A stretch of 31,779 nt of DNA, from the IMG/VR virus record IMGVR_UViG_3300006654_000153, positions 1-31,779 of that record. One strand, written 5' to 3'. This stretch comes from a virus. A program made the position numbers and the translations under genes. The notes under the pieces were generated by a model. That model saw only the letters and a list, made by a program, of their open reading frames with translations. It searched no databases and was not told where the DNA came from. This document shows, piece after piece, positions 1-16,317 of this stretch. Numbering within the stretch: the first letter of the stretch is position 1; each line of letters starts with the position of its first letter.

Positions 1-7
1 TTTTCAT
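1..7 (-). CDS. Start of a further minus-strand gene, cut by the window edge
   Basis: Only ATG-AAA and one more base are inside the window. I call it a gene start because the ATG is preceded on the minus strand by AACTATACGACA, the same leader found before other genes of this cluster, and because the upstream gene stops just before it. Nothing can be said about the product. Confidence 0.45.
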
Positions 8-18
8 TGTCGTATAGT
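8..18 (-). promoter_or_regulatory. Repeated early-gene leader, copy next to the window edge
   Basis: On the minus strand this reads AACTATACGACA directly before ATG. It shares the TATACGAC core with the leaders at 684-696, 928-952 and 2400-2416. The stop codon of the upstream gene touches its 5' end, so it fills the whole intergenic gap. Confidence 0.55.
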
Positions 19-261
19 TTATGTTAGTATTATAAAATCACCGGCGGAAATCTTCGAGAGGTCTCCTTTTATCTTGTCGTATAGCCAGTCTTTCACCTCT
101 AGGTATAGCCAATCACCTAGATCGTCTTTAACTGTCTTAGAAGCGCTTATTTGGCTCTTAGGGATGGGGACAAACTCTCCTCCATACCCACTAGTGAGTA
201 TCACAATAGCCTTTTCGGTCTCTTGGTAGACTCTCTTGGTCTTTACTTTGAACTTTGCCAT
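19..261 (-). CDS. Small hypothetical protein (80 aa)
   Basis: An 80-residue, lysine-rich soluble protein with no signal peptide or membrane segment. The N-terminus (MAKFKVKTKRVYQE) is basic. The middle holds a short hydrophobic strand (AIVILTSGYGG), and the C-terminal half alternates aromatic and charged residues (DWLYLEVKDWLYDKIK), suggesting a small alpha/beta fold. It starts two bases after the stop of the 48-aa gene upstream, so translation is probably coupled. It lacks the repeated leader seen at most starts in this cluster. I do not recognise the family. Confidence 0.75.
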   Translation of the reverse strand: MAKFKVKTKRVYQETEKAIVILTSGYGGEFVPIPKSQISASKTVKDDLGDWLYLEVKDWLYDKIKGDLSKISAGDFIILT

Positions 262-263
262 GG

Positions 264-410
264 TTATTCTGGTTCATATGAGAAGAAGAACAGAGAGCCG
301 CCTTTATCGGCTATACCGTCTAATTCTATTCTTGTGTCTTGCTCCCAAACCAAAGCGCCGAGCGAATTAATTTGAAAGGCTCCCGGCGTGTGTGTGTCGT
401 CTGTTTTCAT
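264..410 (-). CDS. Small hypothetical protein (48 aa)
   Basis: A 48-residue frame starting MKTDDTHTPGAFQINSL and ending FFFSYEPE, closed by TAA two bases before the next gene. Support comes from its tight fit between two neighbours (three bases after the preceding stop, two before the next start) and from a start preceded by ACTAGACA, a degenerate copy of the cluster's leader. The composition is acidic with a hydrophobic end. Function is unknown. The main doubt is its short length. Confidence 0.6.
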   Translation of the reverse strand: MKTDDTHTPGAFQINSLGALVWEQDTRIELDGIADKGGSLFFFSYEPE

Positions 411-413
411 TGT

Positions 414-683
414 CTAGTATATTACTGTTTGGTGCACTCTTATTTTGGTAGTCATCAACCCATCGATCAAGACAACCATATCAACGTTTCCGCGAACCAT
501 GGATAATATTATATCCCTAGGTATTCCGACATCGTGACGGGATACTCCGAAATGGTCTCCGATGGCTTTTCTAGCCTTGTCCCTTAACTCGGCATCTATA
601 CCTCTGGCTGATAGCATTGTACCTATCATAGGGTTGTCGCTGTTCTCTGTTTCCATTAGTGTAATGGCTATAGTATTTTTCAT
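414..683 (-). CDS. Hypothetical protein (89 aa)
   Basis: The start is placed at the internal ATG at 683-681 (MKNTIAITLMETENSDN) and not at a possible upstream ATG at 734, because the 683 start is preceded by AACACTATACGACC, the repeated leader, and because the longer form would overlap the previous gene and add an implausible His/Arg-rich head. The protein is a mixed alpha/beta sequence with a hydrophobic, valine-rich C-terminal part (NVDMVVLIDGLMTTKIRVHQ). No catalytic motif is visible and no function is assigned. Confidence 0.75.
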   Translation of the reverse strand: MKNTIAITLMETENSDNPMIGTMLSARGIDAELRDKARKAIGDHFGVSRHDVGIPRDIILSMVRGNVDMVVLIDGLMTTKIRVHQTVIY

Positions 684-696
684 GGTCGTATAGTGT
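684..696 (-). promoter_or_regulatory. Repeated early-gene leader
   Basis: Minus-strand sequence AACACTATACGACC directly before the ATG at 683. It matches the copy at 928-952 through the 13-base core AACACTATACGAC and begins right after the TAA of the upstream gene. Confidence 0.65.
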
Positions 697-927
697 TTAG
701 TTAAATGCGTATGCCGTGCCCTTGTCGGTCTCAATTACCTCGTCGGCGCTCTCCATTGCTTGTGTACTTTCTTCGTCAAGGTAGTAGAGTTCGGCGTTGG
801 TATAGTGAAAAATACAATGATACTCGATCGACTTAAAGACGTTGTCTCTTTCGTGTATCAATTCATCTGAAGATAGAGAGCCGTCTGCGCCCTGTAGTAT
901 GTCGTTTGTTCTTTCTGCTGTAGTCAT
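697..927 (-). CDS. Hypothetical acidic protein (76 aa)
   Basis: A 76-residue acidic protein beginning MTTAERTNDILQGADGSLSS and ending TDKGTAYAFN. The central part (SIEYHCIFHYTNAELYYLDEE) is rich in aromatic residues and contains His, Cys and Tyr, but no recognised metal-binding pattern. The start is well supported because it directly follows the best copy of the repeated leader. It is cotranscribed with the similar small genes on either side. The function is unknown; accessory early phage proteins often look like this. Confidence 0.75.
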   Translation of the reverse strand: MTTAERTNDILQGADGSLSSDELIHERDNVFKSIEYHCIFHYTNAELYYLDEESTQAMESADEVIETDKGTAYAFN

Positions 928-952
928 GTCGTATAGTGTTAAAGTTTGAATA
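928..952 (-). promoter_or_regulatory. Repeated early-gene leader, long copy
   Basis: On the minus strand: a TATTCAAACTTTAACAC half followed by TATACGAC and ATG. It is nearly identical over about 25 bases to the copy at 1634-1660, the longest conserved pair. The TAA of the upstream gene (953-955) lies immediately before it. Confidence 0.7.
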
Positions 953-1633
953 TTAGTATTGTAAGGCCATGCAATAAGGCGTGCACTCTTTGCCGTCTAA
1001 CTCGAAACACTTTGTTTCTTCGTTGTATTTACCGCCCTCGTTCTCCATTTCGTAGAACGTTTCAAACGGGTTGCCGTCTGGTTCGTTTGGGTTGTCGAAT
1101 TGCACCTGCATACCTAGAAAGAAATAATCCGGTTCTTCCATCTTGTACACTCTGCCGTTAGAGTGCCCGCCTCTCGCATCCGCTCCGTTGTGAGACTGTA
1201 GGATGCAATACGTATCACCATTGATTTCGAAGGTCACCCCCTGCAGGTCTTGTGAGAGGTCATTGTCCCAGTTGTAAGTATAGAACCACTCTTTACTACA
1301 TAGGTGGCCGTCAAACTCAGCGCCGAAATACTCTATCAGAAAGTCCTCAATTTCCCCTTGATCATTGTAGCACAAGGCTAGATCCGGGTGGTTGAGTTTA
1401 AATAAGTTCTCGATGTCGTGGCATGTGCTATCATAGAGCAGTTGTGAGGCCATGAAAGAGGCAATTGGTATAGTTACCCCGTATTCGTCAATAGAGACGC
1501 CCTCGTCAAAGCTAATGCCGTTCTTTTGGTTTTGTTGCCACGCTCTACCATCGTCTCCACCTGAGTCTAGGAAGTGTTTCCCGGTGTTTTCTAGTAGCTG
1601 TGATTGTATAATTTTTTTCGTTTCGGTGTCCAT
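953..1633 (-). CDS. Conserved phage protein of unknown function (226 aa)
   Basis: The largest gene of the left cluster. The N-terminal segment around residues 13-38 (LLENTGKHFLDSGG then GRAWQQNQ) resembles a motif I have seen in many phage-encoded proteins of unknown function; I have no search to confirm it. The remainder is acidic and rich in aromatic residues, with several Cys (including the C-terminal ECTPYCMALQY) and Gly-His-Asn patches (SHNGADARGGHSNGR). There is no signal peptide or membrane segment. The start follows a long copy of the repeated leader. I infer a conserved early phage protein and do not assign an activity. Confidence 0.85.
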   Translation of the reverse strand: MDTETKKIIQSQLLENTGKHFLDSGGDDGRAWQQNQKNGISFDEGVSIDEYGVTIPIASFMASQLLYDSTCHDIENLFKLNHPDLALCYNDQGEIEDFLIEYFGAEFDGHLCSKEWFYTYNWDNDLSQDLQGVTFEINGDTYCILQSHNGADARGGHSNGRVYKMEEPDYFFLGMQVQFDNPNEPDGNPFETFYEMENEGGKYNEETKCFELDGKECTPYCMALQY

Positions 1634-1660
1634 TGTCGTATGTGTTAAAGTTTGAATATT
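1634..1660 (-). promoter_or_regulatory. Repeated early-gene leader, long copy
   Basis: Minus-strand AATATTCAAACTTTAACAC then ATACGACA and ATG. Compared with 928-952 it has one T fewer in the core and one A more before the start. The upstream gene's stop lies 15 bases before it, so here the motif stands free of coding sequence, which argues it is conserved for itself. Confidence 0.7.
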
Positions 1661-1675
1661 TAAGGGCGGTAAGGC

Positions 1676-2068
1676 TTACACGTCCTGTAGTTCGTCATTC
1701 ATTTCATTAAAGAATGTACTAATTTGTTCCTCTAGGTCTTGAAAGTTCTCTCTAGCATAGTGAGAAGCATGTAAGGAGGCTAACAACTCGCTGTTAATGT
1801 TTTCAGTGGTGCAACCCATTTCTGCAGCTAGCTCCGTGCTTTCACTTAGAGAGGCGTCATTTTCTAGTAGGTACTCCATCGCCTTTGAATAGTAGATTAT
1901 GTCTATATTAAATGCGCCGCTCTCCTCTAGTTGGTCGCCGATGCTGTTGAATGCGTCTTCAAAATCAATTTCATCCGTATCTATATGGTAGACCATATCA
2001 ATATCAGTGCTTAGAGATTTTAGAAAAGTGTTTATTTTGTTCTGTTGTTCTTCGTTTAGTTCGTTCAT
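1676..2068 (-). CDS. Strongly acidic helical protein (130 aa)
   Basis: A 130-residue protein with a large excess of Asp and Glu and few basic residues, predicted mostly helical. Segments such as DIIYYSKAMEYLLENDASL, followed by SESTELAAEMG and ENINSELLASLHAS, recall a family of short hypothetical proteins common in Bacteroidota and their phages; this is recollection, not a search result. The very acidic character would also suit a DNA-mimic or anti-host protein, but nothing in the sequence proves that. Its start is preceded by a divergent leader (AACACTCTAAACCCTACAAC). Confidence 0.8.
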   Translation of the reverse strand: MNELNEEQQNKINTFLKSLSTDIDMVYHIDTDEIDFEDAFNSIGDQLEESGAFNIDIIYYSKAMEYLLENDASLSESTELAAEMGCTTENINSELLASLHASHYARENFQDLEEQISTFFNEMNDELQDV

Positions 2069-2078
2069 GTTGTAGGGT

Positions 2079-2297
2079 TTAGAGTGTTATTTTAAATTGG
2101 TTGGAATAGTCGTTAGTTTCCACGCGCTCGAAATAGCCTTTATCAATAAGGGCGTTAAACGAACCATCAAAGCTCTTTACATGCTCTAGGCATAGGCTTT
2201 TCAGTGTGTCGTACTTAATAGGGTTGTTAGGCCCTGTATATTGCTTGCACACCTCTAAAAGTGTTTCCTGCGTAGGCGTTAGCTTTCTTTTTCGCAT
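2079..2297 (-). CDS. Small winged-helix-like protein (72 aa)
   Basis: A 72-residue basic protein: MRKRKLTPTQETLLEVCKQY, then a segment ending SFNALIDKGYFERVETND, then SNQFKITL. The layout (basic tail, helix, second helix, helix of the form NALIDKGYFERV, then a beta hairpin) is what a winged helix-turn-helix looks like; 'LIDKGYFERV' is the usual recognition-helix-to-wing transition. DNA binding is therefore inferred. It ends in KITL, as does its 32-aa neighbour, and both ends share the DNA AAAATAACACTCTAA, suggesting a local duplication of the intergenic unit. Confidence 0.7.
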   Translation of the reverse strand: MRKRKLTPTQETLLEVCKQYTGPNNPIKYDTLKSLCLEHVKSFDGSFNALIDKGYFERVETNDYSNQFKITL

Positions 2298-2300
2298 GTT

Positions 2301-2399
2301 TTAGAGTGTTATTTTTTCAATGTCTGTTTTCGATATTCTTACGCCTATCAATAGGCCAATAGCGCCGCCTAGGGCTGCAAAGATAATTAGGTCAATCAT
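2301..2399 (-). CDS. Very small single-span membrane protein (32 aa)
   Basis: A 33-codon frame encoding MIDLIIFAALGGAIGLLIGV followed by a charged tail (RISKTDIEKITL). Residues 3-20 form one hydrophobic span with a glycine-zipper pattern (G11, G12, G15, G19), so a small inner-membrane peptide is predicted. The positive residue just after the span suggests the C-terminus faces the cytoplasm. The start is preceded by AAACTTATACGAC, a copy of the repeated leader, and the stop lies three bases before the next ATG, which together support it as a real gene. Confidence 0.65.
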   Translation of the reverse strand: MIDLIIFAALGGAIGLLIGVRISKTDIEKITL

Positions 2400-2416
2400 G
2401 TCGTATAAGTTTGATT
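2400..2416 (-). promoter_or_regulatory. Repeated early-gene leader, first copy of the cluster
   Basis: Minus-strand AATCAAACTTATACGAC directly before ATG. It keeps the CAAACTT and ATACGAC parts of the long copies but has a shorter middle. As it precedes the first gene of the minus-strand cluster it may also be part of the cluster's promoter region. Confidence 0.6.
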
Positions 2417-2572
2417 AGTTAGTATAAGGTACTCACCGTTTATGCAGACTTGTAACTGCCTTGGGTCGGTTTACCTTGTCCCCTATTAAACTTGCGCGGG
2501 GAAACTACGCGCCACCTATCACTGTCCCCATAATGTGGTAAGGGTTACTACCCTAGACTATAAGTGATCGGC

Positions 2573-2607
2573 CTATACCAAGACACCTTCGCCCATGCCT
2601 TGTATAG
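2573..2607. other. Inverted repeat / RNA hairpin candidate
   Basis: CTATACCAAG at 2573-2582 pairs with CTTGTATAG at 2599-2607 (nine base pairs and one bulged C) around a 16-base loop. It is not followed by a T-run on either strand, so a simple intrinsic terminator is unlikely. Confidence 0.5.
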
Positions 2608-3015
2608 TTGGAACCTCCTAATTTTCTAACCCTGTTGGTTTGTGCGCTTCTAACGTCACTGGAGATATTACGTTCAAACGTTGTGATCTTGTGCACGCAC
2701 ACCGATCTTTAAAATCGAGCGGCGGAATGGCTTAGTTAAGCATCAAAACTATGTAAAGAACTAGTAAGCGTAATCATAATCAATCCTAGTGTGCCTGTAT
2801 ACCAACCCTGCGGCTGTTGTCTGTCTTAGGTAACCTATCAAGTAACGTAGAGCCTATATAAGGGTACACATGTGATAGTGTCTGTGTGTATGAGATATAT
2901 ATTGTTTGTCCCTTTCACATTGCTAACCTACTGCAAATATTCCATATAACCACAACAATTGATTACCGAAAGCATGTGATTCAGGGGATACCCTTAGAAA
3001 GGCCTAATGGTTCAC

Positions 3016-3072
3016 CCTTAGTTAGACTAAGGATGCAGCGTACTGCCTGCATAAACCCCCTTATATACAAGG
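3016..3072. other. Three back-to-back hairpin candidates
   Basis: CCTTAG (3016-3021) pairs with CTAAGG (3027-3032) over a 5-base loop. Immediately next, ATGCAG (3033-3038) pairs with CTGCAT (3047-3052) over 8 bases. A short CCTT/AAGG stem follows at 3059-3072. Their contiguous arrangement without coding sequence suggests a structured RNA or protein-binding array. Confidence 0.5.
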
Positions 3073-3166
3073 ACATTGTTGCCCTGTTGTGAGTACTGTA
3101 TAATTGCCACCATGCAAGAATACACGTGTTGTCCTGGTCCAGGCCCTGAAGCCCCTATACTGTCCT

Positions 3167-3180
3167 ATAATAATTATTAT
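3167..3180. other. Perfect 14-bp A+T palindrome
   Basis: ATAATAATTATTAT is its own reverse complement and is enclosed by CCTAT (3164-3168) and ATAGG (3186-3190). An easily melted site of this kind could be part of an origin or a repressor site. Confidence 0.45.
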
Positions 3181-3217
3181 GTTAAATAGGATCTGATGGC
3201 CTAGCTACTCCCCTACT

Positions 3218-3319
3218 CCACCAAGGAAAGCAAAACAAAGACACACACCACAGAAATAAGAGAGCACGCACGCCCACACACACAGACAGCAGCCCACACA
3301 CAGAGCGACACAGACCCCC
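3218..3319. other. 102-nt tract with a single T (A/C/G-only composition)
   Basis: From 3218 to 3319 the plus strand has only one T (3257). It is dominated by CA and GA steps such as ACACACACCACAG and CCCACACACACAGACAGC. Such a tract cannot form A-U pairs with itself and would stay single-stranded in a plus-strand transcript; as DNA it has extreme strand asymmetry. Confidence 0.6.
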
Positions 3320-3382
3320 TCGATGCTTTGAGACCTATGAACCGATACCCGCGTCTCTGTAGGCTTGTAACAGTTCGGTTTT

Positions 3383-3412
3383 CCTTTCGAAAGGGGGGAG
3401 GGTAGGGTAAGG
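3383..3412. other. Perfect 12-bp palindrome fused to a G-run cluster
   Basis: CCTTTCGAAAGG (3383-3394) is a perfect palindrome. Its last two bases begin a G-rich stretch to 3412 (six G, A, GGG, TA, GGG, TAA, GG) with enough G-runs to permit a G-quadruplex on the plus strand. Confidence 0.5.
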
Positions 3413-3621
3413 TAGATATACTATCCCACCCATACGAATCGTTTTTCAAACTCCCCTACAGCATACCCATGGCTATAAGTAGCTTATTCCTATAGGATCT
3501 AGAATAAAACACCCCGGGGGTAGGGTCGATGGTACCTGGTGTATAAAAAAACATGGTTTTAGGTAAGGGTATACACTGAAAGTGTGTGGTCTAGTACATG
3601 GTTGTGCGAGGGTAAGTGTTC

Positions 3622-3648
3622 ATATTCCCGGAATATTAGCTATATTCG
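3622..3648 (+). promoter_or_regulatory. Dyad operator candidate at the promoter of the 3665-5785 operon
   Basis: ATATTCC (3622-3628) and GGAATAT (3630-3636) form a perfect 7-bp dyad with one central base. Five bases later TATATTCG (3641-3648) resembles the Bacteroidota -7 box TAnnTTTG with one mismatch, 17 bases before the ATG. The dyad thus lies between the presumed -33 and -7 positions, the classic place for a repressor site. No good -33 TTTG is visible. Confidence 0.5.
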
Positions 3649-3664
3649 CTTAAAAACAGATGAT

Positions 3665-10399: not shown

Positions 10400-10413
10400 G
10401 TTCGTAAGTGTTT
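10400..10413 (-). promoter_or_regulatory. Distant copy of the early-gene leader
   Basis: Minus-strand AACACTTACGAAC directly before the ATG at 10399. It differs from the AACACTATACGAC core by a few bases. As a -7-like box lies further upstream, here the motif would fall in the 5' leader of the message. Confidence 0.45.
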
Positions 10414-11102: not shown

Positions 11103-13427
11103 ATGGCTGACCAGAAGAAGAAGACCATAAATAACAAGATAGTAACAGAGAACAAGCTAGACTATCTAGAGGACTTGTACCACAGCAAGATCCCTTTGAG
11201 CGAAAAGCAGCTCGACCTCTTAAAGAAAAGCGGGAGGATAGACGTAATCCCTTCCCCAAAGAAACCAAAGCGCCAGGCATTAGAGACGGACGACCTCTCT
11301 AAAGGCGACAACCAACAACTTGCTGATCAATATGTAGACGTAGTAGAAGAGAACGAGGAATACAACCCGGACTCAGACGTTATAATCTTAGAATCAGACA
11401 GTTACGACAGGCTATCTGATAGCTCTCTATTCAAGTATTCAGGCGGCATGGAGATCGACAGGAGCGATTGGATGCCAGACTCTGTGATACACCACAAGGA
11501 AGATTTCGTCCGATGGGTAGACTCTATAAACAACGGATTCCAGAGAATGGTAGAGTACAAGCCATTCCAGCTGTACTGCCAGCAAACCACAGACTGGTTA
11601 GCAGACGGAGAGACCATACACGACCAGGACACCTACGAAGACAAGAAGGAGTTCGCCTTCAGAGAGATAGGCCGGTGTCGTCAAAACACATTATACTTCA
11701 TGGACAAGTACCTCCAACTAAAGGAGGGGGATATGGGTACCGGATCGATGAAGTACCTATCAAAACCAGTGCACAAGGTGATTGCATTCATGTTTGACTG
11801 CGGGTACTCTACCATGACGGGTAAACCTAGACAGATCGCGGCAACATCTACATATGGGGGTTGCGCGTTAGCTAAGATATGCTTCAACAGGAACTTCTTC
11901 CTTAAGTTCATAACCATGGATAAGGAATCGGGTATTGAGATCTTTGAAGACAAGATCAAGTACCCGTTTAGTGAGCTGCCTAACTGGATGAAGCCAGAGG
12001 TAAGTAACGACAGAGAGAATCAGTTCAGGCTCAGCAAGAAGTCTGAAAAGAAAGGAACCAAGAAGGGGGTCAACTCCAAGATATCTGTAGTGGCACCATC
12101 TGTGGCTGCTATTAACGGTGGATCACCTCAGCTAGTGATGATCGATGAGGCTGGTTACATCAGTATGCTCGGTAAGATGATCAAGGAGGCTAGACCTACT
12201 ATATTCTGGCAAAACCCTGAAACAAAGCTACTTGAGACAAAGCGTCAGATCATTATCTGGGGCACAGGTGGTGAAATGGATAAAGGCGGTAAGGCTTACG
12301 AGGAAGAGTACTACGCAGCGCTAGAAGCATGGAAGGATCGTAACTTCGAGTACGGAATCATACCGATATTCTTCGATTGGACTACTAGGCCTGGTATAAC
12401 AAAGGATCACTACAATAACGAGAAGCGTAACTACACTATCGACGGCCCTGGAAGGGATGAGCGAATGGTTCAGTTCAGACAGCATTACCCTACCATACTA
12501 GAGGACATGTTCCTTACGTCTTCTAAGCTACTTGTATCTATCGACTGGATAAACACCAACCTGGAGCGTATACAGACGATGGACGCCGACCTTAAGCCTA
12601 AGAAGGGGTACTTCGAGCCGATATACGACACCTCTCAGCCTGCAGACGAGAATAGTGATGTGGATTTTAAGATAACAGGGGCTACATTTATACCGGTAGA
12701 CGACGCTGACCCTCGGGCTTCGGTGACAATATTCATGGACCCTAAGCACGGGTGGGAGAACAGGTATTTCCAAGGAACGGATCCTGTGGCTTCGGATAAC
12801 GGGTTCTCAAAAATGGCATCAGCTATATTTGACTCCCACTACAAGACCATAGCAGCTGTAGTCAACTACAGAGAGTCTAATCACAAGCACACGTTCCTCC
12901 AGAACATGCTGTTGGGACTCTACTACTCAAAACCAGGAACCATGGCCGTAAAGGAGCTCGTAGAGAGCAACATAGGCCTGGCTTATATTGACTACAAGGA
13001 CAACAAGGGGTTCTACGACTCGTTAGTGTATAGAACGGAGCTTCCCGAGTACATGCAAGGAGGAAACAGTGCAGAAGGAATAGACAACAGGGGTGCTAGA
13101 ACAAGGATGATCATAAACAAGATGTTCGAGTTCCTGGATGCGTTCGGAGATAGGATGTGGATCGACATTGCCTTCAAGCAGCTTCGGACTTTCGTGTGCA
13201 AGGTAACTAACAATGGCACAGAAACATGGGGCACCATAGACACCAAGAAATACGATGATGATGTCTTGTTTGCCATTGTTTTTGCCTATATTTGTAGCTT
13301 ATGTTACGAACACACTCCTCCCAAAGAGCGGGAGTCCGAGCTAAAATCCTTCAATGTATCGAGGGTACTAAGCAGGGATAACGACGGTGGCTTGTACTAT
13401 AGAGAGAAAAAAGAACGCACCAGATAA
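11103..13427 (+). CDS. terL: Terminase large subunit (774 aa)
   Basis: The DNA-packaging motor, which cuts and pumps DNA into the procapsid at the portal. The ATPase part carries an adenine/P-loop region TGKPRQIAATST (about 239-250), a clear Walker B VMIDEAG (345-351) and a coupling segment IIIWGTGGEM (383-392). The nuclease part shows IFMDPKHG (543-550), GTD560 and a YDDDVLFA motif at 717-724, consistent with an RNase H-like acidic triad with a middle Glu near 618-621. The Walker A is a variant of the RQxGxS/T type in which the Gly is Ala. At 774 residues it is long because of a roughly 130-residue acidic N-terminal extension. Its stop overlaps the next start (TAATG). Confidence 0.95.
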   Translation: MADQKKKTINNKIVTENKLDYLEDLYHSKIPLSEKQLDLLKKSGRIDVIPSPKKPKRQALETDDLSKGDNQQLADQYVDVVEENEEYNPDSDVIILESDSYDRLSDSSLFKYSGGMEIDRSDWMPDSVIHHKEDFVRWVDSINNGFQRMVEYKPFQLYCQQTTDWLADGETIHDQDTYEDKKEFAFREIGRCRQNTLYFMDKYLQLKEGDMGTGSMKYLSKPVHKVIAFMFDCGYSTMTGKPRQIAATSTYGGCALAKICFNRNFFLKFITMDKESGIEIFEDKIKYPFSELPNWMKPEVSNDRENQFRLSKKSEKKGTKKGVNSKISVVAPSVAAINGGSPQLVMIDEAGYISMLGKMIKEARPTIFWQNPETKLLETKRQIIIWGTGGEMDKGGKAYEEEYYAALEAWKDRNFEYGIIPIFFDWTTRPGITKDHYNNEKRNYTIDGPGRDERMVQFRQHYPTILEDMFLTSSKLLVSIDWINTNLERIQTMDADLKPKKGYFEPIYDTSQPADENSDVDFKITGATFIPVDDADPRASVTIFMDPKHGWENRYFQGTDPVASDNGFSKMASAIFDSHYKTIAAVVNYRESNHKHTFLQNMLLGLYYSKPGTMAVKELVESNIGLAYIDYKDNKGFYDSLVYRTELPEYMQGGNSAEGIDNRGARTRMIINKMFEFLDAFGDRMWIDIAFKQLRTFVCKVTNNGTETWGTIDTKKYDDDVLFAIVFAYICSLCYEHTPPKERESELKSFNVSRVLSRDNDGGLYYREKKERTR

Positions 13428-14055: not shown

Positions 14056-16317
14056 ATGTCACACCTGTTCTCAGCCCAGCCTAACAAACCAAATAGGTTA
14101 GATAGTTCAAAGTATCCAAACAAGGACACTAACAAGGACTATCATGTAGATTACGCTATGTGGGCTGTAACCAACGCTCACAACCACCAGCACTCAGAGT
14201 GGCTCAACAGGATTCGCAACAACAAGAGATTCTACAAGGGAGACCAGTGGGAAACGAGAGAGGATAAGGAAGCGTTCTTGAAAGACAGCTCAGGTCAGAC
14301 AACAAACAGAATTAAGATCGTGCACAACCTCATCCGCCCTATGGTGGAGCAGTTTAGAGGTAATGCAATAAGACTATCGATCAACGCTACAGCCAAGAGC
14401 GTATCTCCTAGGTCCATCTCCAGAAAAGACAAGCAACTCGAGGAGTTGTTGTTTAAGACAGAGGTAGCTAACGAGTTTCCAGGGATCGGCGCGATAATCA
14501 GAGACAACTCCAAAGAGATTGGTGAAGACGAAGCGGAAACGACTACGATCTTCAATAACCTATACGTTGACATGTACCTGCGGGACATGAACAACTTGCT
14601 TAAGTACGTAGCCAAGCTTAACGACTTTAAAGAGATGCAACCTATGATGGCTATCCATCTCAGCCTCACCGGCTTGATATGTGTAGAAGCATTTGAGCAC
14701 GGCGGACATCAGAGATACAAGGTTATGGAGCCGGAAGACTTCTGGTGGGACAGAGACGCTAGAAGGTATGACCTAACAGATGCGAACTACATGGGCACTG
14801 TTGAGCCTATGGATCCATCAGCTATATTCGAGATGTGGCAGAACATCCCTATGGCTGACAGAACATCTATAGAGAACTACGTGTCATCTCAAACGTCAGG
14901 ATCAGAGAATCGATACGAGCACAATAGCAGAAGCTTCAACTCGACAAAGCTACCTGTATATAAGGCTTACTGGAGAGACATTGATCACTTCCAGTATGGA
15001 TGGGTTATGACTGACCTAAACATCCCTCAGCTGGTTAAGATCAATCACACTGAGCCTGGCCAAGAAGAGCCTAAGTGGACAAAGAAGGATCTTATCGATC
15101 CGCCAAACACCCCTATGAGTAGATCTCTATTCAAAGGCAAGTCCAAGGTGAGAAACCTGTATGTAGACGTATTAAGATATTGTGTATTCATCCCGGGAGA
15201 TGTAGTAGCGGCTGGATCAAATAAAAACGAAGACAAAGTTGCTGACATCGCACTCGAGTTCGGAACACACGCATACCAGGAGACTGACTACTTAGACTTA
15301 TCTAACGTCAAGTTCCCGTTTAAGTGCGCTGTATGGGGTTATATCGACGGAGAGGTGTTTAGCCCTGTTGATGACGCTATAAACCCTCAGAGGTTCATAA
15401 ACCGCGTCCTATCTGTTACTGAGTCTCAGATAAACAATGCTGGAGGATCTAACGTCATTATAGATGAAGACACTATCGCTGGACAGGACAAAGGTGAGAT
15501 CTACAGAGACATTAAGCAGGGTAATCCTGTTTCTATACGTACAAAAGGTAGAGGTGTACCAAACTCGGTAGGCTTCTATGATGCTACTTCCAAGAAGGGC
15601 ACGTATGACATGTTCCAGTTGATTCCTATCATGAAAGGTCTCATTCAGGACACTACCGGTATAAACGAGGGACTTAAAGGTGAATCCACCGGCCCGGATC
15701 AGTTGGTCGGGGTGACTCAGCTTCTAATCCAGAAAGGATCCTTGATGCAGGAAGCGTTCTACGATGCTATAGCTAAGGTGCATGTTCAGATGTATCAGCA
15801 CACAGCCACAGTAGGTAAGAGAATGTACATCGATAACGAGATGGAGCTTTCTTTAGCTGTAGGAGACATAGGCGCGGAAGTTATTAAGCTTTCAAAGGAT
15901 TGCAAGAACGAAGACTTTAGAGTGTTCATAGAGAGAGACAATAACTCTGAAGCTATGCAGACGCAAGCGGATCAGTTACTTGGATTCTTCTTAGAGAACC
16001 AAATCATCGATCAGGTAACGTTCACAGACTTGTACGGAAGATCAACTCCGGACGAAGTTATGTTCGAACTACGCCAGAGAATGAGACAAAAAATGGAAGC
16101 CGATCGTAGAGCAGCCAAGCAGCAGAATCAAGAGCAGCAGCAAGCAGCTCAGCAAGAACAGCAGATGATGGCCCAGGCACAACAGCAGGAAGCTCAATCC
16201 AAACAAGAAGCTTTCCAGATGGACGCAAACAACAAGGAGCACGACCTAAATAAGATCATAACACAAGGAGCAGTAGACTCAGCTAGAGACGAAGAGAATA
16301 GAGAGGCTCCTGAATAA
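14056..16317 (+). CDS. Portal protein (753 aa)
   Basis: Forms the dodecameric ring at the capsid vertex through which DNA enters and leaves. The N-terminal part has the usual portal pattern: NRIRNNKRFYKGDQWETRED, then NRIKIVHNLIRPMVEQFRGN (around residues 84-105), then a core with DPEDFWWDRDARR and TDANYMG. The C-terminal 60-70 residues are Gln/Ala-rich (KQQNQEQQQAAQQEQQMMAQ), a low-complexity tail common in portals of this group. Length 753 agrees with portals of crAss-like and P22-like phages. It lies between the terminase pair and the scaffold gene, as expected. Confidence is high for function, lower for sub-family. Confidence 0.88.
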   Translation: MSHLFSAQPNKPNRLDSSKYPNKDTNKDYHVDYAMWAVTNAHNHQHSEWLNRIRNNKRFYKGDQWETREDKEAFLKDSSGQTTNRIKIVHNLIRPMVEQFRGNAIRLSINATAKSVSPRSISRKDKQLEELLFKTEVANEFPGIGAIIRDNSKEIGEDEAETTTIFNNLYVDMYLRDMNNLLKYVAKLNDFKEMQPMMAIHLSLTGLICVEAFEHGGHQRYKVMEPEDFWWDRDARRYDLTDANYMGTVEPMDPSAIFEMWQNIPMADRTSIENYVSSQTSGSENRYEHNSRSFNSTKLPVYKAYWRDIDHFQYGWVMTDLNIPQLVKINHTEPGQEEPKWTKKDLIDPPNTPMSRSLFKGKSKVRNLYVDVLRYCVFIPGDVVAAGSNKNEDKVADIALEFGTHAYQETDYLDLSNVKFPFKCAVWGYIDGEVFSPVDDAINPQRFINRVLSVTESQINNAGGSNVIIDEDTIAGQDKGEIYRDIKQGNPVSIRTKGRGVPNSVGFYDATSKKGTYDMFQLIPIMKGLIQDTTGINEGLKGESTGPDQLVGVTQLLIQKGSLMQEAFYDAIAKVHVQMYQHTATVGKRMYIDNEMELSLAVGDIGAEVIKLSKDCKNEDFRVFIERDNNSEAMQTQADQLLGFFLENQIIDQVTFTDLYGRSTPDEVMFELRQRMRQKMEADRRAAKQQNQEQQQAAQQEQQMMAQAQQQEAQSKQEAFQMDANNKEHDLNKIITQGAVDSARDEENREAPE

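Follow-up and report, generated by a model that had tools for sequence, protein, structure and literature searches.

A repeated leader at the start codons and a predicted twister ribozyme in a small-gene cluster of a phage contig from a Flavobacteriaceae bin

Introduction

How the ribosomes of Bacteroidota find their starts without Shine-Dalgarno (SD) pairing is an open question, and so is the role of twister ribozymes in phages. Both questions are touched by the left end of the IMG/VR virus record IMGVR_UViG_3300006654_000153, which was analysed over its whole length of 31,779 nucleotides (the window). One 2.5-kb piece of it combines a ribozyme with a predicted cut and a short leader, repeated at a fixed distance from the ATG of several minus-strand genes. 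What is such a leader for? The initial annotation had named three candidates, i.e., a promoter for a phage-carried RNA polymerase (RNAP), a translation-level element in a host lacking SD starts, and the target of a phage regulator. In our study, we found it rather probable that the leader is a start signal acting at the RNA level, in an operon mRNA whose 5' end would be cut by the ribozyme. Taken together, the start leader and the twister are a variation on known kinds.

Leader copies and their specificity

The leader has the consensus TAACACTATACGAC-ATG. Five clear copies were found on the minus strand, at nucleotides 8–22 (TAAACTATACGACA, before the ATG at 5–7), 684–699 (TAAACACTATACGACC, before 681–683), 928–952 (TATTCAAACTTTAACACTATACGAC, before 925–927), 1634–1658 (TATTCAAACTTTAACACATACGACA, before 1631–1633), and 2400–2413 (CAAACTTATACGAC, before 2397–2399). 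The spacing to the ATG was 0 or 1 base in all five, as had been claimed for them. The copy at 928–952, 25 nucleotides long like that at 1634–1658, occupied the entire intergenic gap, and that at 2400–2413 follows the ribozyme and precedes the first gene of the cluster. The long stretch reported to be common to the two longest copies, before 925 and 1631, amounted to 19 exact bases (AATATTCAAACTTTAACAC) plus ATACGAC.

The weaker forms listed in the initial annotation fared differently. The copy at 411–421 (minus strand, TATACTAGACA, before the ATG at 408–410) is weak and alone unconvincing, and so is the distant one at 10400–10413 (AACACTTACGAAC), which requires an indel. The variant leaders at 2069–2093 (AAAATAACACTCTAAACCCTACAAC, before 2066–2068) and 2298–2315 (AAAATAACACTCTAAAAC, before 2295–2297), both on the minus strand, share a different 16-base exact repeat, AAAATAACACTCTAAA. 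Both overlap the end of the upstream gene, and the repeat doubles as coding sequence for the C-termini of the upstream genes (...KITL-stop). The stop codon of the upstream gene lies within the leader at five starts, namely 5–7 (TAA, closing the gene at 19–261), 408–410 (TAG), 681–683 (TAA), 2066–2068, and 2295–2297. The sequence TATACGAC was also found once within the coding region of the cluster (76–83, minus strand), not preceding an ATG.

The leader before the five starts is repeated beyond chance. Since mismatch-tolerant k-mer counts are uninformative in A-rich leaders, anchored exact words were used instead. ATACGAC, anchored at −1/−2, ended 0–1 base before the ATG in five of the nine leaders of the left cluster. 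In 20,000 random sets of nine starts each, drawn from 266 other open reading frame (ORF) starts of the window and of G098 (a 62.9-kb IMG/VR contig, the nearest relative found), no 7-mer was common to more than three of the nine. With up to three mismatches, AACACTATACGACATG gave four matches vs. 0.36 expected, and none of 100 shuffles reached four. When a weight matrix was derived from the five copies, they scored 15.4–18.8 and the next best site of the contig 12.4; the copies being the training set, the informative value is the gap to the sixth site. Within the contig the motif was thus not scattered without relation to gene starts but confined to the left cluster, with no other site above 12.4, the structural genes included. 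The relatives G098 to G102 held no comparable copy.

Outside these phages the motif was mostly background. In 395 genomes of the host phylum the matches were about equal in number to those of a reversed-pattern control, and across viral contigs 8 of 46 matches were at gene starts vs. about 10%. Single matches at real gene starts were seen in L025, L028, L031, L034, L068, and L073, and a pair in L056/L061. In L056, an unrelated phage contig, the adjacent genes starting at 844 and 1283 (plus strand) are led by TTAACACATTACGACT-ATG and AAAAACTATACGACA-ATG, which are very similar to the window leader. Two halves of the T7 promoter (CACTATA and ATACGAC) are present in the motif with their order swapped, which we took as coincidence.

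Twister ribozyme upstream of the first gene

The segment 2477–2426 on the minus strand (AAGGUAAACCGACCCAAGGCAGUUACAAGUCUGCAUAAACGGUGAGUACCUU) is, on strong sequence evidence, a compact type-P1 twister ribozyme, with a predicted U|A cut between 2473 and 2472. It was absent from the observations of the initial annotation and was found here by an Rfam scan. The model RF03160 gave an E-value of 1.2e-5 over the window and 40.2 bits, which did not reach the gathering score of 67.2 because the P3 hairpin of the model is absent. A phage twister model, built from 24 copies that excluded the window and its closest group, scored the element at 58.5 bits (E 5e-18) and found nothing else in the contig.

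P1, P2, P4, T1, and T2 were all present, and the window sequence pairs throughout. Compared with the Rfam consensus, both sides of the pseudoknots were changed with pairing kept (T1 from CCC:GGG to UAC:GUA; T2 from GC:GC to AC:GU). The invariant core UAA...CAAG.C...UAAA.G..GAG was matched. In an alignment of 40 ungapped phage copies, standard pairs occupied 98.4% of the pair cells, vs. 71% when shuffled and at most 44% when slid; changes on both sides were found in 12 of 16 pairs, both pseudoknots included. Twenty-four columns were invariant, including UAA, CAAG, UAAA, and GAG of the core at the U|A cleavage site. No further twister copy was found in the host bin, and a search of 298 genomes of the family gave a twister match, a weak one, in only one more.

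The twister ends 26 nucleotides upstream of the first ATG of the operon, and the predicted cut lies 73 nucleotides upstream of it. Twister cleavage generally leaves a 5'-hydroxyl. The first leader copy follows the ribozyme and precedes the ATG; if the ribozyme is co-transcribed, this leader is part of the mRNA, which argues for a role at the RNA level. The noncoding stretch at 2478–3664 must hold a promoter if the ribozyme is transcribed. An association between twister genes and certain phage genes is stated in PMC4604425, with reference to Roth 2014 and Weinberg 2015. No description of twisters placed before the starts of small-gene operons was found in the literature searched, the primary twister papers lying outside that search. 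The predicted ribozyme adds one more, informatively placed, to an established class.

Promoter and translation signals

The window and the 62.9 kb of G098 were searched for RNAP families, PDB matches to an RNAP, and DFDGD-type active sites, and none turned up; the remainder of the window phage's genome could still encode an RNAP. The flavobacterial promoter TTG-N18-21-TAnnTTTG (−33/−7 boxes) was not matched anywhere within the left cluster or immediately upstream of it, and neither sigma-70 nor flavobacterial promoters were found above chance at the leaders. Leaderless mRNAs constitute 5.5% of the mapped mRNAs of Flavobacterium psychrophilum (PMC9723704).

The leaders contained no anti-SD pairing, and are situated in weakly structured, G-poor RNA. 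In Flavobacterium johnsoniae, initiation is SD-free, and it is tuned by a leader that is unstructured, rich in A, and has this base at both −3 and −6 (PMC6847099). The weak structure, the scarcity of G, and the lack of an SD fit initiation of the Flavobacterium kind. Pairing of the leader with the 16S rRNA of family members was also considered, and was rejected because the duplexes were not above those of shuffled leaders. Among the candidate meanings named earlier, the translation-level element in an SD-free host fits best, given the Flavobacteriaceae bin and the absence of anti-SD pairing; an RNA target of a regulator is less likely.

Twisters and sister leaders in other phages

A core-pattern scan of viral contigs gave at least 127 matches, at least 99 of them passing the P1, P2, P4, and T1 tests. 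Among the matches listed, 44% of the phage twisters had a start on the same strand within 60 nucleotides downstream, vs. 10% of random positions. Two phage contigs each contained three twisters in series among small genes (L138:6272–7361 and L217:5029–5919), an arrangement that would suit the cleavage of one polycistronic message into several parts. With at least 99 candidate twisters in viral contigs, some of them serial, a role in phage mRNA processing is directly testable.

Among the matches listed, the twisters closest in sequence to that of the window (L154, L166, L171, L179, L190, L207, and L210) precede long co-directional runs of genes of 50–130 amino acids by 23–46 nucleotides. Behind the run in L154 stand genes for an exonuclease, a DnaB-type helicase, and GroEL. 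The starts behind these twisters carry a repeated ATG-abutting leader of their own, CTAAACAACTAGAAAYT-ATG, which occurs four times in L190 before genes without clear paralogy. In the form AAACAACTAGAAAYT-ATG, this sister leader was present in L190:12063–12877, L261, L279, L281, and L298, with up to four copies per contig. Viral contigs contained the 18-mer AAACAACTAGAAAYTATG at 100 unique places. Of these, 76 were gene starts vs. 12% background, and at 35 its TAG closes an upstream frame of 30 or more open codons; Cellulophaga phage phi10:1 was among the contigs matched. The sister-leader scan thus indicates that start-abutting leader repeats recur in phages of such kind, the sequence differing by lineage.

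Genes of the cluster and the phage contig

The left cluster consists of tightly packed minus-strand genes. The first, at 2301–2399, encodes a small probable membrane protein of 32 amino acids. It is followed by genes at 2079–2297 (72 amino acids, without family), 1676–2068 (130 amino acids, without clear family), 953–1633 (226 amino acids, PHROG 11344, of unknown function), 697–927 (76 amino acids), 414–683 (89 amino acids), 264–410 (48 amino acids), and 19–261 (80 amino acids, with a weak homologue of 37% in G098). The successive gaps were 3, 10, 42, 25, 13, 3, 2, and 11 nucleotides. Paralogy among these genes was looked for and none was found. In actinobacterial phages, those of Gordonia and Mycobacterium, distant homologues of the PHROG 11344 protein are encoded close to the ends of the genome.

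The stretch at 2478–3664, about 1.2 kb without clear genes, separates two divergent gene clusters; a CA-rich low-complexity sequence is present within it near 3230–3320, and G098 has a comparable gap at 59653–61208. The structural genes span 11103–31779, including the large terminase (11103–13427) and a P22-type portal (14056–16317; Pfam E 5e-23), which weakly matches crAss001 gp20. The structural module is syntenic with the relatives. In G098 the terminase was 65% and a 423-amino-acid structural protein 83% identical; G098 and a few fragments were the nearest, and searches of genome contigs with the portal, the 226-amino-acid gene, or the terminase gave no closer relative. Profile searches gave the phage no named family. 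Judged by G098, about half of the phage genome is missing from the contig. A permuted tmRNA match (RF04321, 46.5 bits, just below the gathering score of 47) was seen in G098 at about 55279–55433 (= L047:280–434, minus strand), adjoining two tRNA genes.

The window is a complete contig of 31,779 bp (G000:C9), placed in a bin of 3.7 Mb. Genome G004, of the same family as the bin, has a 16S rRNA matching Zobellia exactly across 50 bases, and the bin is therefore assigned to Flavobacteriaceae. The presence of the phage contig in this bin is not proof of the host.

Discussion

From the repeat, its position, the packing of the genes, and the sequence and structure of the ribozyme, we infer transcription of the cluster as a single unit, cleavage in vivo, and a translational role of the leader. 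The left cluster would be one tightly packed small-gene operon of a Flavobacteriaceae phage, its single message beginning in the noncoding region of about 1.2 kb to the right of 2478. The twister in the 5' leader would cut this message between 2473 and 2472, giving a defined 5' end with a 5'-hydroxyl. The leaders may then mark initiation, or re-initiation directly behind the stop codon of the preceding gene, and may also give a single phage factor a hold for tuning these genes jointly. The leader sequence itself may act by strengthening initiation, by coupling it to the termination of the preceding gene, or through recognition by a phage factor.

Several observations weigh against such a start signal. 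The operon gene starting at 259–261 carries no copy, and the leader is not conserved in G098 although the structural genes are kept there. Two of the five clear copies, at 925 and 2397, lack the favoured A and show G at position −3 and T at −6 in its place, so a plain Kozak-like effect would be an incomplete explanation. The Cellulophaga phages phi10:1 and phi19:1 each have only a few leaders of the sister type, those of phi10:1 being isolated. Most contigs with several sister-leader copies showed no twister in the part examined; the linkage of the two elements is thus not an obligatory one.

Four other explanations were weighed. One phage regulator might bind at the start codons, be it an RNA-binding repressor of the T4 RegA type, a small RNA, or a stoperator-like DNA-binding protein. 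The shared non-SD sequence before many unrelated genes of one operon agrees with this, and variation from phage to phage is expected when binder and site co-evolve; no candidate binder was identified, however, the noncoding region holds no full complement of the motif, and stoperators are not tied to start codons, so we consider it unlikely. A recombination linker, i.e., a short shared boundary by which small accessory genes are swapped as cassettes, with closeness to the ATG reflecting gene boundaries, appears to have a similarly small chance. The region is hypervariable, since nearly all genes of the left cluster are missing from G098, and identical 19- and 16-nucleotide stretches stand at neighbouring junctions before unrelated genes. 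But the register follows the ATG to within a single base rather than the stop codon, and copies of 7–13 nucleotides are short for homologous recombination; a role in RNA is in any case compatible with that of a linker.

The promoter proposed earlier, read by a phage-specific RNAP or sigma-like factor and giving a leaderless message from each gene, is supported by the fixed position, the phage-specific sequence, and the weak resemblance of the portal to that of crAss001. RNA polymerases are known from crAss-like phages. A promoter for each gene is nevertheless unsupported here, because neither the window nor G098 showed an RNAP or the active-site motif of one, the gaps are 2–42 nucleotides (many of them 3–13), stop codons lie inside the leaders, and leaderless mRNAs are rare in flavobacteria (PMC9723704). 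The first copy also lies downstream of the ribozyme, and we regard the promoter as quite improbable. Least credible of all is that a good leader was copied locally in a phage without SD starts, its sequence having no specific function. The identical 19- and 16-nucleotide neighbours do resemble recent copies, and the leaders are A-rich as usual, but ATACGAC is kept in five leaders with differing upstream parts, and an independent phage group has the same pattern with another sequence.

The RNA-level start signal may have a wider bearing. Rather speculatively, many phages may mature operon mRNAs by twisters that lie immediately upstream of where the ribosome lands. Where the host is SD-free, some phages may add a standard, phage-specific start leader read by a dedicated phage factor, the two forming a two-part RNA control module.

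Comparison with known systems

Promoters of phage RNAPs, as in crAss-like phages and Thermus phage P23-45, resemble the window leader in being phage-specific motifs before probably co-expressed genes. The window leader differs in that no RNAP was found, that it abuts the ATG, and that it overlaps stop codons. With the context of Flavobacterium johnsoniae starts it shares the SD-free, A-rich, and unstructured character; that context is a general preference of composition, whereas the window leader is a repeated 13-mer, and two of five copies break A−3/A−6. The ribozyme agrees with type-P1 twisters (RF03160) in P1, P2, P4, both pseudoknots, and the invariant core, and differs from the model in being compact, without P3, and in its position in the 5' leader of a phage small-gene operon.

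The Start Associated Sequences (SAS) of cluster K mycobacteriophages were described by Pope et al. 2011 (PMC3203893). Like the window leader, the SAS is a short asymmetric repeat, present in one orientation directly upstream of several starts. Both are limited to non-structural genes, stand before unrelated genes, are phage-specific and rare in the host, and contain upstream stop codons in some copies. The SAS, GGGATAGGAGCCC, has an SD core and is typically 3–7 nucleotides from the start, whereas the window leader has no SD and a spacing of 0–1 nucleotide. The window leader also has fewer copies and no inverted-repeat extension, and a twister heads its operon. Conservation across related phages, as expected of an SAS, is missing for the window leader, which has no comparable copy in G098 to G102. 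Because of its other sequence, the missing SD core, and the lack of conservation in relatives, the window leader is not a member of the SAS, but it appears to work like one.

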